This document shows, one piece after another, positions 719-19,947 of a stretch of DNA of 34,186 nt. The stretch's first letter is position 1; the number at the start of each line of letters is the position of its first letter. The stretch covers positions 1 through 34,186 of the forward strand of contig JAITJN010000020.1 in NCBI GenBank assembly GCA_031278895.1, in the 5' to 3' direction. The notes under the pieces were generated by a model. That model saw only the letters and a program-made list of their open reading frames with translations, ran no database searches and had not been told where the DNA came from. Origin of the DNA: Candidatus Endomicrobiellum guadaloupense. Its GTDB lineage: Bacteria > Elusimicrobiota > Endomicrobiia > Endomicrobiales > Endomicrobiaceae. The translations under genes were made by a program, and so were the position numbers.

Positions 719-1855
719 ATGAACACAGGATCTAAGCTGGTTTCTTTTAGGGAAAAATGGAAAAGTTGTTATAAGAAAATACCGTTATATTCATTATATA
801 GGGAAATAGTCAATAAAAGCTTGAAAGCATTATTTAAAAACTTTCCTACTTTTGTCAAATTTACTTTTGCAAAGAAAAACAAAAAAATTGTTTATATTGC
901 ATTTCGTCCAGAAGGTGGTTTTGGAGATATTTTAAGACAAAAAGCAATTCTTACCGAAGTGATAAAGATGTTCCCTGATGTTGTTATTGATATATATCAT
1001 GATAAAGCATATTCTTTACTTAAGGACATTAGAAATATACGATTTATCTTTCGCGATAAGCACTCTCTTAATATTACGAAGAAATTTTATAATATTTCAT
1101 TTTCGCAATATGAAGATAAATTTAATTTATTTGTAAAACCTGGAGGAGAATATTATAGAAGAATAAAAAATAATTTAAATGAATATAAAATTGAGTATCC
1201 TAACTGTTTTAAAGAGGTAGAAGATAACATAAGTTTGAATAATAAGGTGATAGACTTTACTGCAGACTTTAACTTTCTCAATCAATGGGCAGAAGATAAT
1301 ATAAACTATATAGAATTATATAAATTGAGAGCTGGTGTTGACAATATAGAAGATGATACATTGCAAATTTTATTCAATGAGAAATCTTTATCTAAATTTG
1401 GTATTTTAAAAGAAACCAAATATTTAACTGTTCAATGTGGACAAGGATGTTCTGGTGATTTTGGTAGTAAAGGATGGAGTTTGGAAAATTGGGAAGAATT
1501 TGTAGCAATTGTTAGAGATGAATTAGATAAGGATATCAAAATTATTCAAGTTGGAATGACAAAAACTAGTTTGAAAGGCGTAGATATAAATATAAATAGA
1601 TTGACTACACTAGAAGAGCTTTGGACAGTATTGAAAAATTCTATACTTCATATTGATCTAGATGGCGCGTGTACGCATTTTGCAAGAGCGTTGAATACAA
1701 AATCAGTTGTTTTGTGGTGGCTGAAAGATCCATCTTTTATTGCTTATGCTGAAAATATAAATATAATTCCTGATGATGGGAATGTAAACTCAATATCTCC
1801 TGGATATGTCTCTAAAAGAGTTATTGAATACTTAACCTCACAGAGAAATCTTTAA
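719..1855 (+). CDS. Glycosyltransferase, GT9 / heptosyltransferase-like
   Basis: This is a 378-residue probable cytoplasmic GT-B glycosyltransferase, likely adding a sugar such as heptose to the LPS core. After a basic N-terminus of about 55 residues, the first Rossmann domain begins with RPEGGFGD (63-70), the glycine-rich acceptor-side motif of GT9 enzymes. The second domain starts near residue 235 (LTVQCGQG, GWSLENWEEF). It contains the sugar-nucleotide-side segment HIDLDGACTHFARAL near 310, equivalent to the D/S-x-G-x-x-H-x-A motif of heptosyltransferases. The ATG at 719 follows AAAGGGG at a good distance. It ends 11 bases before the ABC-F gene, so the two may be co-transcribed. gmhB downstream fits a heptose-containing LPS, but donor and acceptor cannot be read from sequence, and the long N-terminal extension is atypical. 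Confidence 0.68.
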   Translation: MNTGSKLVSFREKWKSCYKKIPLYSLYREIVNKSLKALFKNFPTFVKFTFAKKNKKIVYIAFRPEGGFGDILRQKAILTEVIKMFPDVVIDIYHDKAYSLLKDIRNIRFIFRDKHSLNITKKFYNISFSQYEDKFNLFVKPGGEYYRRIKNNLNEYKIEYPNCFKEVEDNISLNNKVIDFTADFNFLNQWAEDNINYIELYKLRAGVDNIEDDTLQILFNEKSLSKFGILKETKYLTVQCGQGCSGDFGSKGWSLENWEEFVAIVRDELDKDIKIIQVGMTKTSLKGVDININRLTTLEELWTVLKNSILHIDLDGACTHFARALNTKSVVLWWLKDPSFIAYAENINIIPDDGNVNSISPGYVSKRVIEYLTSQRNL

Positions 1856-1866
1856 GGCCTTAAAAT

Positions 1867-3723
1867 ATGATAAAAATCACAGATCTTAACAAATCTTTTG
1901 GTAGCAGAATTTTGTTTGATAATCTAAACTTGAACGTAAATGCTAAAGAAAGAGTTGGTCTTGTAGGAAGAAATGGACATGGAAAGACTTCTTTATTTGA
2001 AATGATTTTGGGAAATATGGAATATGATTCAGGTTCTATAAGCATGCCAAAGAATTATAAATTGGGATATCTTGAACAACATATAAACTTTATTCAAAAT
2101 ACAGTTATTGATGAAGCTTGTCTTGCTCTTGCTGATGAAGAAAAAGATTCATCTTGGAAGGCTGAAAAAATTCTTTCTGGCCTTGGTTTTTCTTCAAGTG
2201 ATATGCTTAAAAATCCTATAGATTTTTCTGGTGGATATAAAATAAGAATAAATCTTGCAAAAGTTTTGCTTTCTAATGCGGATATGCTTATGCTTGATGA
2301 GCCAAATAACTATCTTGATATTGTTGCTATAAGATGGCTTAGTGGATTCTTGCGTTCTTGGAAAGGGGAATTGATGCTTATTACCCATGATAGAAGTTTT
2401 ATGGATAGTGTCATAACTCATTGTGCTGCTATACATCGAGCCAGAGCTAGAAAAATTGAAGGAAACACCCAAAAGCTTTATGAACAGATAGAAAAAGAAG
2501 AAGAAATATACGAAAAAACAAGATTAAATGTTGAAAAGAGAATAAAACAAACAGAGCTTTTTATAAGGCGTTTCAGAGCAAAGGCAAGCCTTGCGGGAAT
2601 GGTTCAATCTCGCATCAAGACACTAGAAAAACAAGACAATCGTGAAAAACTTGATGAAATAGAAACTCTAAGTTTTTCTTTTTCAGGCTTAGAGTTTCAT
2701 GCTGCTAAAATGCTTGGCGTACACAATTTGACATTTGGGTATAGTTTAAATAAGCCTTTGATAAGTAAATTAAGTTTTGATGTGTTAAAAAATGAACGCA
2801 TTTGTGTTATAGGAAAGAATGGTAAAGGGAAATCTACGCTTTTAAGATTGATAGCAGAAAGACTCACACCTTGCGATGGTAGCATAAAAAAGCACCCTGA
2901 TTTAAAAACAGCATACTTTGTTCAGTCTGACAGGGCAGCTCTAAATCCTCAAAAGACAGTTTTTGAGGAAATTCTTGCATCAGATAAATGCTTACCTCAA
3001 AAAGCAAGAAATATTGCAGGTTCAATGATGTTTAGTGGTGATGATGCACTAAAGAAAATAGAGATTTTGAGTGGTGGTGAGAAAAGTAGAGTTCTGCTTG
3101 GTAAAATTTTGGCACAACCATGTCATCTTTTGCTTCTTGACGAACCTACAAACCATTTAGATATGGAATCTTGCGAAGGACTGATAGATGCAATTAACGA
3201 ATTTCAAGGCTCAGTTATTATGGTTACACATAATGAAGAAATGCTTCACAGTATAGCTACAAAGCTAATAGTTTTTGACAGGAATAGAATTTCTGTTTTT
3301 GGCGGTACGTATCAGGATTTCCTTGAAAAAACAGGATGGGAAGATGAAGGGTCTAAAATGAAAGCGAAGACTACTCAAAAAATATCTGGAAAGAGCAAAG
3401 AAGAAATAAAAAAGCTCCGTGCAGAATTTATACAGGAAAAATCAAGAATTATGAGACCTTTGGAAGAAAAAATTAAAAATTTAGAGGCATACATAACAAA
3501 AAAAGAAGAGGAGTTTAATTCAAATACAAAGCAGCTTATTGAAGCTTCAGAAAAAGGTAACATATTTTTTTTAGCTCAAGGTTCAAAGCTTAATAGAAAT
3601 CTTCAATCTGAAATTGAGAGTTTGTATTCAGATCTTTCCTCTTGTGTTGAAAAACTTGAAAAAGAAAGCGGAAGGTTTAAGGAATATATGGAAAAATTAG
3701 AAGACAATAATTCAAAAATATGA
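1867..3723 (+). CDS. ABC-F family ATPase (translation-associated type)
   Basis: This is a 618-residue soluble protein with two ABC domains in tandem and no membrane segments, the hallmark of ABC-F proteins that act at the ribosome. Domain 1: Walker A GRNGHGKT (34-41), signature FSGGY (120-124), Walker B with DEPNNYLD (144-151). Domain 2: Walker A GKNGKGKS (about 316-323), signature LSGGE (about 401), DEPTNHLD (near 425-432). Between them is the charged ABC-F linker (about 190-260, [16 protein letters not shown]). A C-terminal coiled coil of Lys and Glu residues follows from about 505. The first Walker B has Asn and Tyr where Thr and His are commonest, but the catalytic Glu is present. Subfamily (Uup, YheS, EttA or resistance type) is uncertain. 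The ATG at 1867 lies 11 bases after the glycosyltransferase stop with a weak AAGG ahead. Confidence 0.88.
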
Positions 3724-17453: not shown

Positions 17454-18098
17454 ATGGATTTTATATTTTCCAAACTATTTCCTCATAGACATTTTACAAC
17501 GCTTAGATCAGCTGGCGATATGAAGAACAAGACTGAAAGAGACAGTTTCTTTCAGTCTTGTTCTTTAAACTCTAAAGATTTAGTTCTTGCAAATCAAGTT
17601 CATGGGAATAATGTGAAAGTTGTTAAATCTTCAGATAAAAATACTATTATTGACAATTGCGATGCTTTAATAACAGATGATAATAGTGTATTACTGGGAA
17701 TTTTTACTGCTGATTGTATTCCTGTTCTTATTTCTTGCGGGAGTGGTAAGGTTAAGGCTGCAGTGCATGCTGGTTGGAAGGGCATTTATTTGGGGATAGT
17801 TGAAAATACTATAGAAATATTAAAAAAGGATTTCTGTATAAACAGTGAAGATATAAAAGTTTACATAGGTCCTCATATTCGTTTTTGTTGCTATAAAACC
17901 GGATATGAAATGGAAAACAAATTTAATGTAAAACTTGTTGATTCAAAGCTAGATTTATCTGCAATACTTTTCAATAAATTAAAAACATGTGATATTAATG
18001 AAATTTTTGACGTTAATCAATGTACACATCACAATGAAGCTTTGTTTTTTTCTTACAGGCGTAACTCTTGTACACAAAGACTCCTTTCTGTAATTTAA
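17454..18098 (+). CDS. pgeF: Peptidoglycan editing factor PgeF / YfiH (laccase-domain family)
   Basis: This family (PF02578) was long called polyphenol oxidase or laccase domain. Members are now linked to correcting L-Ser misincorporation in UDP-MurNAc-peptide and to purine nucleoside processing. The 214-residue product carries the three metal ligands: His50 in NQVHG, Cys88 in FTADCIP and His105 in AVHAGWKG. IGPHIRFCCYKTG and the C-terminal SYRRNSCTQRLLSVI are also conserved. The size is a little below the E. coli protein. Placement right after ftsZ agrees with a cell-wall role. It lies 18 bases after ftsZ with only a weak ribosome binding site. Confidence 0.9.
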   Translation: MDFIFSKLFPHRHFTTLRSAGDMKNKTERDSFFQSCSLNSKDLVLANQVHGNNVKVVKSSDKNTIIDNCDALITDDNSVLLGIFTADCIPVLISCGSGKVKAAVHAGWKGIYLGIVENTIEILKKDFCINSEDIKVYIGPHIRFCCYKTGYEMENKFNVKLVDSKLDLSAILFNKLKTCDINEIFDVNQCTHHNEALFFSYRRNSCTQRLLSVI

Positions 18099-18155: not shown

Positions 18156-18755
18156 TTGTATATGAGAAATATTAAAAGTATTATACTATTTTCAATATCT
18201 GTGTCTTTGGCTTGTTTATTATCTTCATGTACAAAGCATTTAAATGATAATAACAACACAAGAACAGAAAATTATTACCGAGGAAATCCAAGATATATTT
18301 CTGATTATAATTCTAAAGTTATTGGTTTGGGAAGATTCCATGTAGCTCAAAATCAAAGAGTGTTGAAAATTGTTAATAGAGAGTTGACGCTAGGACTTAA
18401 AAAATCTCATTGGATTTGGTATATTTTCCCGCAGATAAAAGGATTAGGTGTTAGTGATATCAGTGAGTACTATGGTATATATTCTTTAGAAGAGGCAAAA
18501 CAATATTTAGAGGATAGTGTTTTAGGCGATAGATTGATTAAACATACAGGCCTTGTACTTAATTTTAGAAATAGCAAAACTCTAGAGCAAATATTTGGCT
18601 CAATTGATAAACAAAAATTCATATCTTCAATGAGTTTGTTTAATCAAGCATCTATTATGAATGGTATGAATAATTCTATTTTTAACCAAGCCCTTCAAGC
18701 TTTCAATAATGGTCGTGAAGATGTTAAAACTTTACAAATACTAGGCCTTAATTAA
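18156..18755 (+). CDS. DUF1810-domain protein with a lipoprotein signal peptide
   Basis: The body (about residues 55-195) matches DUF1810 (PF08837): GRFHVAQ near the start, the hallmark KSHWIWYIFPQIKGLG, YYGIYSLEEAKQYLED, VLGDRL, LEQIFGS, and a closing FNNGREDVKTLQILG. Function of this family is not established, and most members are short cytoplasmic proteins. Here it is preceded by a basic start, a hydrophobic core and LLSSC, a plausible lipobox, so the product may be a lipoprotein. Two starts are possible. TTG at 18156 is 8 bases after AAAAGG, and ATG at 18162 lies too far from AAAAGG but just past a TATAAT (18148-18153). The signal sequence is unchanged by the choice. The residues between the Cys and the domain are polar, like a tether. 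Confidence 0.78.
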   Translation: MYMRNIKSIILFSISVSLACLLSSCTKHLNDNNNTRTENYYRGNPRYISDYNSKVIGLGRFHVAQNQRVLKIVNRELTLGLKKSHWIWYIFPQIKGLGVSDISEYYGIYSLEEAKQYLEDSVLGDRLIKHTGLVLNFRNSKTLEQIFGSIDKQKFISSMSLFNQASIMNGMNNSIFNQALQAFNNGREDVKTLQILGLN

Positions 18756-18870: not shown

Positions 18871-19947
18871 GTGTCTTTAAAACTGCGTGAAGCTAGAAGG
18901 TCTATAGACAAAGTTGACAAAGAAATAGCAAAGCTCTTAGATAAAAGAGGGAGACTTGCATTAAATATTGCTAAAGCAAAAAATAATAAAGACTTTAGTT
19001 TAGGAGACATAGTATATTACGTTCCTTCTCGCGAAAAGGAAGTGTTAAAGAACATTACTTCTTCAAAGAGTGTTTTAGGACAAGAAGCTCTTAAAAATAT
19101 ATATACAGAGATAATAAGTGCTTGCAGAAATCTTGAAGCTCCGACAAGAGTGTCATTCTTAGGTCCTTGGGCAACGTTTTCTCATCAAGCAGCAATTAAA
19201 AACTTTGGTTCTTGTGGGTATTTTATTCCTGCCGCGACTCCTCTTGATGTTCTTTCAGAAGTTGAAAGTGGAAGATCAGATTTTGGTGTAGTGCCTATAG
19301 AAAACTCAAATGAAGGTTCTGTAAATATAATATTGGATATGCTTGTTGAAACTGAAATTAAAATATGTGCAGAGATAAGTTTAAAAATAGAACAGTGTTT
19401 CCTTGTGAAAAATCCTAAAGCTGAAGTTTTAAGAATTTATTCTCACACGCATGCTTTAGCCCAGTGTAGAGATTGGATAACACAGCATTACCCTGATGCT
19501 GAATTAATACCTGTTTCCTCAACAGCACAAGCAGCAAAGAAAGTTACTAAAGAAGATTTTTCTGCAGCAATAGCTTCGCAAGTGGCAGCTAAAATTTATA
19601 ATCTGTATATATTAGAAAAAGGTGTACAAGATAGCAAAGAAAATTTTACAAGATTTTTTGTTATAGGTAAGGTATCAACTGAACCTAGTTATAAGGATAA
19701 AACTAGTTTGGTTTTTATAGTTAAAGATAAAGTTGGAGCACTATACGAAGCTCTTGAAGTATTTAATAAAAACAATGTAAATTTGACAAAGATTGAGTCT
19801 CGCCCAACAAAGAAAAGAGCATGGGAATATATGTTTTTTGTTGATTTTAAAGGACATATCAAAGACCAAAACATAGTTAAAACAATAAAGAGTTTAGAAA
19901 GTAAAAATGTTTTTGTAAAAAGTTTGGGTAGTTACCCAAGAGCATAA
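18871..19947 (+). CDS. pheA: Bifunctional chorismate mutase / prephenate dehydratase
   Basis: PheA converts chorismate to prephenate and then to phenylpyruvate, the phenylalanine branch. Of 358 residues, 1-85 are an AroQ-type chorismate mutase (IDKVDKEIAKLLDKRGRLA; YVPSREKEVL). Residues 90-270 are the dehydratase (FLGPWATFSHQAA, VVPIENSNEGSV, FTRFFVIG with catalytic Thr). Residues 278-358 are an ACT domain (GALYEALEVF, then ESRPTKKRAWEY) expected to bind phenylalanine for feedback inhibition. SHTHALAQC replaces the common SHPQ form. The start is GTG at 18871, supported by GGGGGAGAGG a few bases upstream. It opens the aromatic operon; hisC starts one base after its stop. Confidence 0.96.
   Translation: MSLKLREARRSIDKVDKEIAKLLDKRGRLALNIAKAKNNKDFSLGDIVYYVPSREKEVLKNITSSKSVLGQEALKNIYTEIISACRNLEAPTRVSFLGPWATFSHQAAIKNFGSCGYFIPAATPLDVLSEVESGRSDFGVVPIENSNEGSVNIILDMLVETEIKICAEISLKIEQCFLVKNPKAEVLRIYSHTHALAQCRDWITQHYPDAELIPVSSTAQAAKKVTKEDFSAAIASQVAAKIYNLYILEKGVQDSKENFTRFFVIGKVSTEPSYKDKTSLVFIVKDKVGALYEALEVFNKNNVNLTKIESRPTKKRAWEYMFFVDFKGHIKDQNIVKTIKSLESKNVFVKSLGSYPRA

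Follow-up and report, generated by a model that had tools for sequence, protein, structure and literature searches.

Proteins of the DUF1810 family (PF08837) are common in two of three sampled phyla, and their structure has been solved at a resolution of 1.38 Å for Rv1873 (PDB 2JEK), which was the sole PDB relative found by sequence for the protein described here. In the accessible part of a computational survey Rv1873 appears as a computed binder of ATP (PMC5624866), and the literature searched under DUF1810, Rv1873 and COG5579/PF08837/2JEK, as far as its text could be accessed, yielded no functional account of the family. The genus Endomicrobiellum is described, in the accessible part of its source, as consisting of flagellate endosymbionts with a mean genome size of 1.13 Mbp, a mean G+C content of 32.3% and NTTs in some lineages (PMC11257099). 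A word search of the main text of that paper gave zero mentions of autotransporter, lipoprotein, effector or secretion, and a literature search found no paper pairing "Endomicrobium" with "autotransporter"; given this last result, the surface proteins of the Endomicrobium lineage look little studied.

Here we followed up a first-pass annotation of a 34,186-nucleotide stretch of DNA from Candidatus Endomicrobiellum guadaloupense (the window; G+C content 32.05%), in which one gene had been read as a DUF1810 domain apparently exported as a lipoprotein. Loci and genomes are cited by L and G numbers, the window gene being L001 and its genome G000.

The DUF1810 gene between pgeF and pheA

A single plus-strand open reading frame (ORF) was found between pgeF and pheA in the window (Table 1). 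The frame first placed at 18156-18755 was recovered together with its domain, which matched the Pfam profile with 144.3 bits (E 2.7e-42; residues 56-194, profile positions 4-136 of 136), exceeding the gathering cut-off of 25 bits across the profile, and was the sole Pfam domain found in the ORF. Its location between a division and cell-wall cluster (ftsA, ftsZ and pgeF/yfiH upstream) and the aromatic genes (pheA next downstream) was likewise confirmed, and only the start was revised: the first-pass annotation had begun at TTG 18156, two codons 5' of ATG 18162, and the latter is preferred as the likely start because the closest relative (L005) begins at the corresponding ATG and offers no ATG, GTG or TTG further upstream. 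The resulting product has 197 residues. The neighbourhood gives no clue to function. In L004 no pgeF was listed before the domain and the next ORF is ftsZ, and the contigs of L005 and L007 stop before any pheA.

Table 1. Positions of the features of the window gene and its neighbours, and of three fused genes at other loci
Feature	Position	Strand	Basis or source
Type II (lipoprotein) signal peptide, predicted, residues 1-22, ATG start	18162..18227	+	Basic start, hydrophobic core, lipobox LSSC; 5/20,000 shuffles match
Cys23 codon, predicted lipidation site; +2 residue Thr, not Asp	18228..18230	+	Sequence reading
Polar tether, residues 24-55, predicted disordered	18231..18326	+	Block pLDDT 46-56 over residues 1-50
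DUF1810 domain, residues 56-195	18327..18746	+	Pfam 144.3 bits; 28/29 near-invariant positions; block pLDDT 95-98 from residue 61
Stop codon	18753..18755	+	Sequence reading
pgeF/yfiH (Cu-oxidase_4), upstream neighbour	17454..18098	+	Domain search; pgeF ORF also 5' of domain in L005, L006 and L007
pheA (chorismate mutase / prephenate dehydratase), downstream neighbour	18871..19947	+	Domain search; also follows in L004 and L006; follows barrel in L278
DUF1810 + ADP-ribosylglycohydrolase	L066:2917-4191		Bacteroides genome
DUF1810 + ADP-ribosylglycohydrolase	L106:296-1597		Viral contig
DUF1810 + ADP-ribosylglycohydrolase	L171:694-1899		

Export signals were assigned by a simple rule of our own (basic start, hydrophobic core, and a lipobox with Cys near residue 15-35) rather than by a predictor of the SignalP type, and under this rule the window protein classes as a bacterial lipoprotein through Cys23. 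Residues 1-23 (MRNIKSIILFSISVSLACLLSSC, followed by TKHLNDNNN) comprise a basic start (R2, K5), a hydrophobic core with a mean KD of 2.5 over 11 residues, and the lipobox LSSC at residues 20-23, in the context LLSSC. To gauge chance, the 228 nt separating pgeF from the domain were shuffled 20,000 times with dinucleotides preserved; a reading frame of 57 codons or more stayed open in 69 shuffles, and in-frame signals were lipoprotein-like in 5, Sec-like in 78 and a membrane segment in 130. The signal with LLSSC and the polar tether of the first-pass annotation therefore both stand, the tether (residues 24-55) being predicted as disordered. LspA (PF01252), the signal peptidase II that matures lipoproteins, is encoded in the window's genome (124.3 bits) and was found in 36 of the 41 genus genomes in all, this one included. 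By the E. coli rule, Thr after the cysteine is no mark of inner-membrane retention, and we infer from these features that Cys23 would be lipidated; the protein may be exposed at the surface.

For the fold, AlphaFold2 modelling of the protein from 76 sequences gave a mean pLDDT of 85, with the highest values over the DUF1810 part and the lowest ahead of it (Table 1). At an E cut-off of 0.001 Foldseek returned a single match, 2JEK (E 1.3e-10), and VIA-align superposed the model on this structure with a Z score of 24.1, an rmsd of 2.0 and 42% identity over 140 aligned residues. Rows for importin/armadillo proteins, at Z 5.3 and below, were rejected as distant fold relatives since they resemble common helical arrangements. 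We also compared a near-invariant set of 29 positions, each at least 90% conserved in 69 chosen controls and including K-x2-HWxW-x2-FPQ and D-x2-K-x2-S, in the seven of the 12 genus copies that were scored. The window protein keeps 28 of the 29, the exception being T158, where Ser is found, and across the seven genus copies, the window's among them, the number is 26 to 28, set beside a control mean of 28.3 (range 23-29, n=69). With profile score, near-invariant residues and the Rv1873 fold of the predicted model in agreement, the DUF1810 membership first claimed is clear, and the retention of the conserved residues suggests that the activity of the domain is probably kept in the window protein and the six relatives.

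DUF1810 copies outside and inside the genus

The controls were drawn from the best 80 of 583 confirmed loci in named genomes, which are the most query-like ones so that rare exported copies elsewhere are possible, together with 61 viral contigs, 4 plasmid regions and three sampled phyla. DUF1810 was present in 29/395, 56/398 and 1/398 genomes of these phyla, the last being the chosen centre genome only, and sequence stretches covered 44 of 45 survey rows in the first and 58 of 62 in the second, where the four left out were short. A motif search located 135 of 141 loci and the remaining six were recovered by a profile search. The 250 control frames gave 242 distinct domain strings, 237 of them with an in-frame domain start. 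In 232 of these 237 distinct frames a start codon lies no more than 15 residues from the domain, and none of the 237 carries a credible export signal under our rule; L039 and L177 were flagged by the rule and discounted, as their start codon lies 5-6 residues before the domain. This agrees with the family being normally cytoplasmic, as had been stated.

Among the viral contigs, a number of DUF1810 proteins (L116, L125, L131, L135, L137-L140, L144-L148, L150, L153, L154) carry a C-terminal addition of about 78-110 residues, which looks alike in those translated. Two Nitrospira loci (L033 and L071) each contain two DUF1810 genes close together.

Within the genus, 12 DUF1810 copies were found in 11 of 41 genomes, and a sample of 24 genomes covering the rest of the order, class and phylum yielded none. 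The remaining 30 genus genomes had no match, many of them being incomplete, and genome sizes in the genus range from 0.2 to 1.4 Mb. Tabulated by lineage, as the first-pass annotation had proposed, N-terminal signals are recognisable in 8 of the 12 genus copies (L001, L002, L003, L004, L005, L007, L008 and L009) versus 0/237 elsewhere, and this pattern, together with the sequence of the window gene, supports its suggestion that the domain has moved to the envelope in an unusual setting. The L003 gene starts at TTG, the signal of L004 is of the Sec type if translation begins at its ATG and of the lipoprotein type if it begins at a GTG further on, and L009 is a broken gene. Two further copies have damaged signals. 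In L006 the hydrophobic stretch ends in LCSC and the sole in-frame start lies 3' of the stretch, so that the protein would not be exported as it stands, and in L014 the hydrophobic stretch is in another frame and the lipobox Cys has become Ser. The last two are broken without a readable signal: another gene's sequence has taken the place of what preceded the domain in L010/L013, and the damage to L011 is too great for it to be read. In all, six of the 12 copies are disrupted (L005, L006, L009, L010/L013, L011 and L014). An ATG upstream of the domain and 3' of the hydrophobic stretch occurs in L008 (12 residues before the domain) and L006 (25 residues before).

A side observation concerns L013 (G015, about 1501-2150, minus strand), where the end of an unrelated gene runs in frame into the start of the DUF1810 pseudogene and has replaced its signal.

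At least one flank places five copies (L001, L004, L005, L006 and L007) at the same locus as in the window. The interval between psd and dnaX houses L008 and L014, L009 and L010 adjoin dnaX, and L011 lies near dnaN, the dnaX placement of L009, L010 and L014 having been read from sequence; L002, L003 and L011 are at loci other than the window's. The window's genome has a second DUF1810-like protein, L002 (901-1998 of contig C11), with a Sec signal and a long extra C-terminal region. It has lost the HWxW motif and other conserved residues and may be a non-catalytic paralogue. In the tree, six of seven genus domains fall into one supported set (97), and one gain or two gains of the gene cannot be told apart because L003 is unplaced and 32 of the 59 internal branches lack resolution. 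An ATP/ADP antiporter was found in 9 of the 41 genus genomes and is absent from the window's genome, a distribution which agrees with the accessible text of PMC11257099; the genus probably consists of symbionts of termite-gut flagellates. No 16S gene was found in the window's genome. The comEC forward primer for 'Ca. Endomicrobium agilae' (PMC8809381) had one exact match among the 41 genomes, within a ComEC ORF of G019 but on the strand opposite the gene, and its reverse partner had no match in that 3-kb locus with up to 3 mismatches allowed.

Autotransporter forms and clues to chemistry

In genome G032 a single ORF (L003) combines a signal, a DUF1810 domain (residues 23-162, 152 bits), proline-rich repeats and a PF03797 barrel (residues 356-593, 57.6 bits). 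In genome G025 one contig (C17) carries pgeF followed by a signal, DUF1810 and a charged linker (L007) reaching the contig end, and the end of another contig (C20) carries a PF03797 barrel (58.6 bits), which shows two apparent frame changes, followed by pheA. The two contig ends share no words, and synteny is what links barrel and L007; by this synteny a barrel may stand between DUF1810 and pheA at the window's locus in that genome. Relatives of the L003 barrel were found in 13 of 41 genus genomes, with two matches in the window's genome. By domain search the window ORF has no C-terminal PF03797 barrel and does not class as a classical autotransporter. These comparisons support more than one export route for a domain that is normally cytoplasmic, and the single exported lipoprotein of the first-pass annotation becomes one case in this wider picture.

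The genome of L003 (1.0 Mb) contains 18 matches to the L003 barrel, some of them pieces of one frame, at about 15 separate places. This expanded family (L263, L276, L283, L287 and L290-L300) has varied passengers, some of them rich in poly-Gln or Pro-Thr repeats. One member, L295:146-1648 on contig C9, has a hydrophobic N-terminus, a NUDIX passenger (34 bits, cut-off 21.1) and a related barrel, the barrel match being partial (194/255 positions).

The fused genes in Table 1 have glycohydrolase domains scoring 120.8 (L066), 126.5 (L106) and 142.4 bits (L171), and the NCBIfam DraG model matched both L066 and L171 with scores that fell far short of its cut-off. These fusions are a possible key to the function of DUF1810 and offer a concrete, testable chemistry for it. 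Among the 101 flanking ORFs (of 160 listed) of cytoplasmic DUF1810 genes no shared family was seen, the commonest reaching 4/101; because the neighbours share no family, the guess at a substrate comes from the three fusions and the one NUDIX case, which are suggestive only and point weakly to nucleotide or ADP-ribose chemistry. A role in anti-phage defence was considered and rejected, with 0 PADLOC-DB families at E 0.01 and no PHROGs match.

Weighing of the explanations and comparison with known systems

The best explanation overall, to which we give a probability of about 0.6, is that a DUF1810 protein of this symbiont genus has turned into an envelope protein. It starts from what can be read in the DNA, namely the signal, the lipobox, the intact domain, the export signals across the genus and the autotransporter fusion, and the case for export is carried by the unlike signals in other species and by the signal-domain-barrel ORF L003. 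The window protein would be made with a Sec/lipoprotein signal, LspA would cut before Cys23, which would then be lipidated, and the protein would be held in the envelope, most likely in the outer membrane and perhaps facing outward, with the folded domain extending freely from the membrane on its 32-residue flexible tether. In sister species a plain Sec signal would take this part, or an autotransporter barrel which would place the domain on the outer surface. The domain may still do its ordinary chemistry, now outside the cytoplasm, as is implied by the retained near-invariant residues, and our best guess for its target would be a substrate of the nucleotide or ADP-ribose type, acted on at the boundary with a host cell.

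Three other accounts have to be weighed against this one. The protein could be an ordinary cytoplasmic DUF1810 whose true start is TTG 18327 (Leu56), with the upstream signal a leftover or a fortuitous coding sequence. A start downstream of the hydrophobic segment was what the first-pass annotation had named as speaking against export, and this codon does coincide with the first residue of the domain and recurs in L005, in line with the position of the start in 232 of 237 cytoplasmic relatives; no protein-level selection is seen on the 55 upstream codons, because dN is 0.102 and dS 0.082 there between the window gene and L005. The same codons, however, are in frame and without indel in L005, no ribosome-binding site is visible before TTG 18327, a lipoprotein-like signal arose by chance in only 5 of 20,000 shuffles, unlike signals precede the domain in other species, and in L003 the domain sits between signal and barrel within one ORF, all of which makes a cytoplasmic product highly improbable. 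An account in terms of decay, by which the exported protein once worked and selection on it in the window species is now slight, so that genome erosion will remove it, is unlikely but deserves serious attention. Half of the genus copies are broken, and the genome's own second copy lacks the HWxW motif. For the DUF1810 gene dN and dS were 0.157 and 0.187 between the window and L005 in comparison to 0.038 and 0.137 for pgeF, and 0.246 and 0.238 between L004 and L006, giving dN/dS of about 0.8 to 1.0 in the two close pairs versus 0.28 for pgeF; these close-pair ratios are inflated because L005 and L006 are themselves broken, and the deeper pair of window and L004 gave a dN of 0.561 and a dS of 1.446. 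The window ORF, moreover, is full length with nearly all of its near-invariant positions. We read the disruption of six of the 12 copies and the high recent dN/dS as signs that an exported protein which was useful in the past is disappearing from several species.

Since lipoproteins are able to face the periplasm, the product might also be an inward-facing housekeeping lipoprotein acting on the cell wall and unrelated to any host, an idea suggested by the adjoining division and cell-wall genes. This context is not kept in the genus, with L008 and L014 between psd and dnaX and L003, L002 and L011 elsewhere, no match was found in 30 of 41 genus genomes (many incomplete), and the autotransporter form would face outward; a periplasmic housekeeping role is therefore doubtful, while retaining some weight. 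The envelope protein of our preferred explanation can be given a bolder form, which we consider speculative and rather improbable, in which the endosymbionts display DUF1810 and NUDIX domains on their outer surface via interchangeable lipoprotein and autotransporter anchors, acting on metabolites or ADP-ribosylated proteins of the host cytoplasm, with DUF1810 as a partner of ADP-ribosylglycohydrolase. A genus that exports DUF1810 with its conserved residues kept suggests either that a substrate exists outside the cytoplasm or that the host is the target, and the envelope setting hints that DUF1810 can work at or beyond the cell envelope.

In comparison with known systems, the DraG-like ADP-ribosylglycohydrolases (PF03747) stand C-terminal to DUF1810 in L066, L106 and L171 and may belong to a related pathway, whereas this domain is absent from the window protein and the three fused copies were unflagged for an export signal. 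L003 shares with the classical autotransporters (type Va, PF03797) the signal, passenger, proline-rich linker repeats and barrel, and differs from them in that its passenger is a compact domain which is cytoplasmic elsewhere; the window gene, for its part, is barrel-free. Like bacterial lipoproteins, the window protein has a basic start, a hydrophobic core, a lipobox, a cysteine and a polar tether, in a genome that encodes LspA, but its cargo is a domain never seen with such a signal in the 237 control frames. Its closest described relative, Rv1873 (PDB 2JEK), corresponds to it over the whole domain; the window protein retains the family's near-invariant residues and adds a predicted lipoprotein signal and a tether ahead of that domain.
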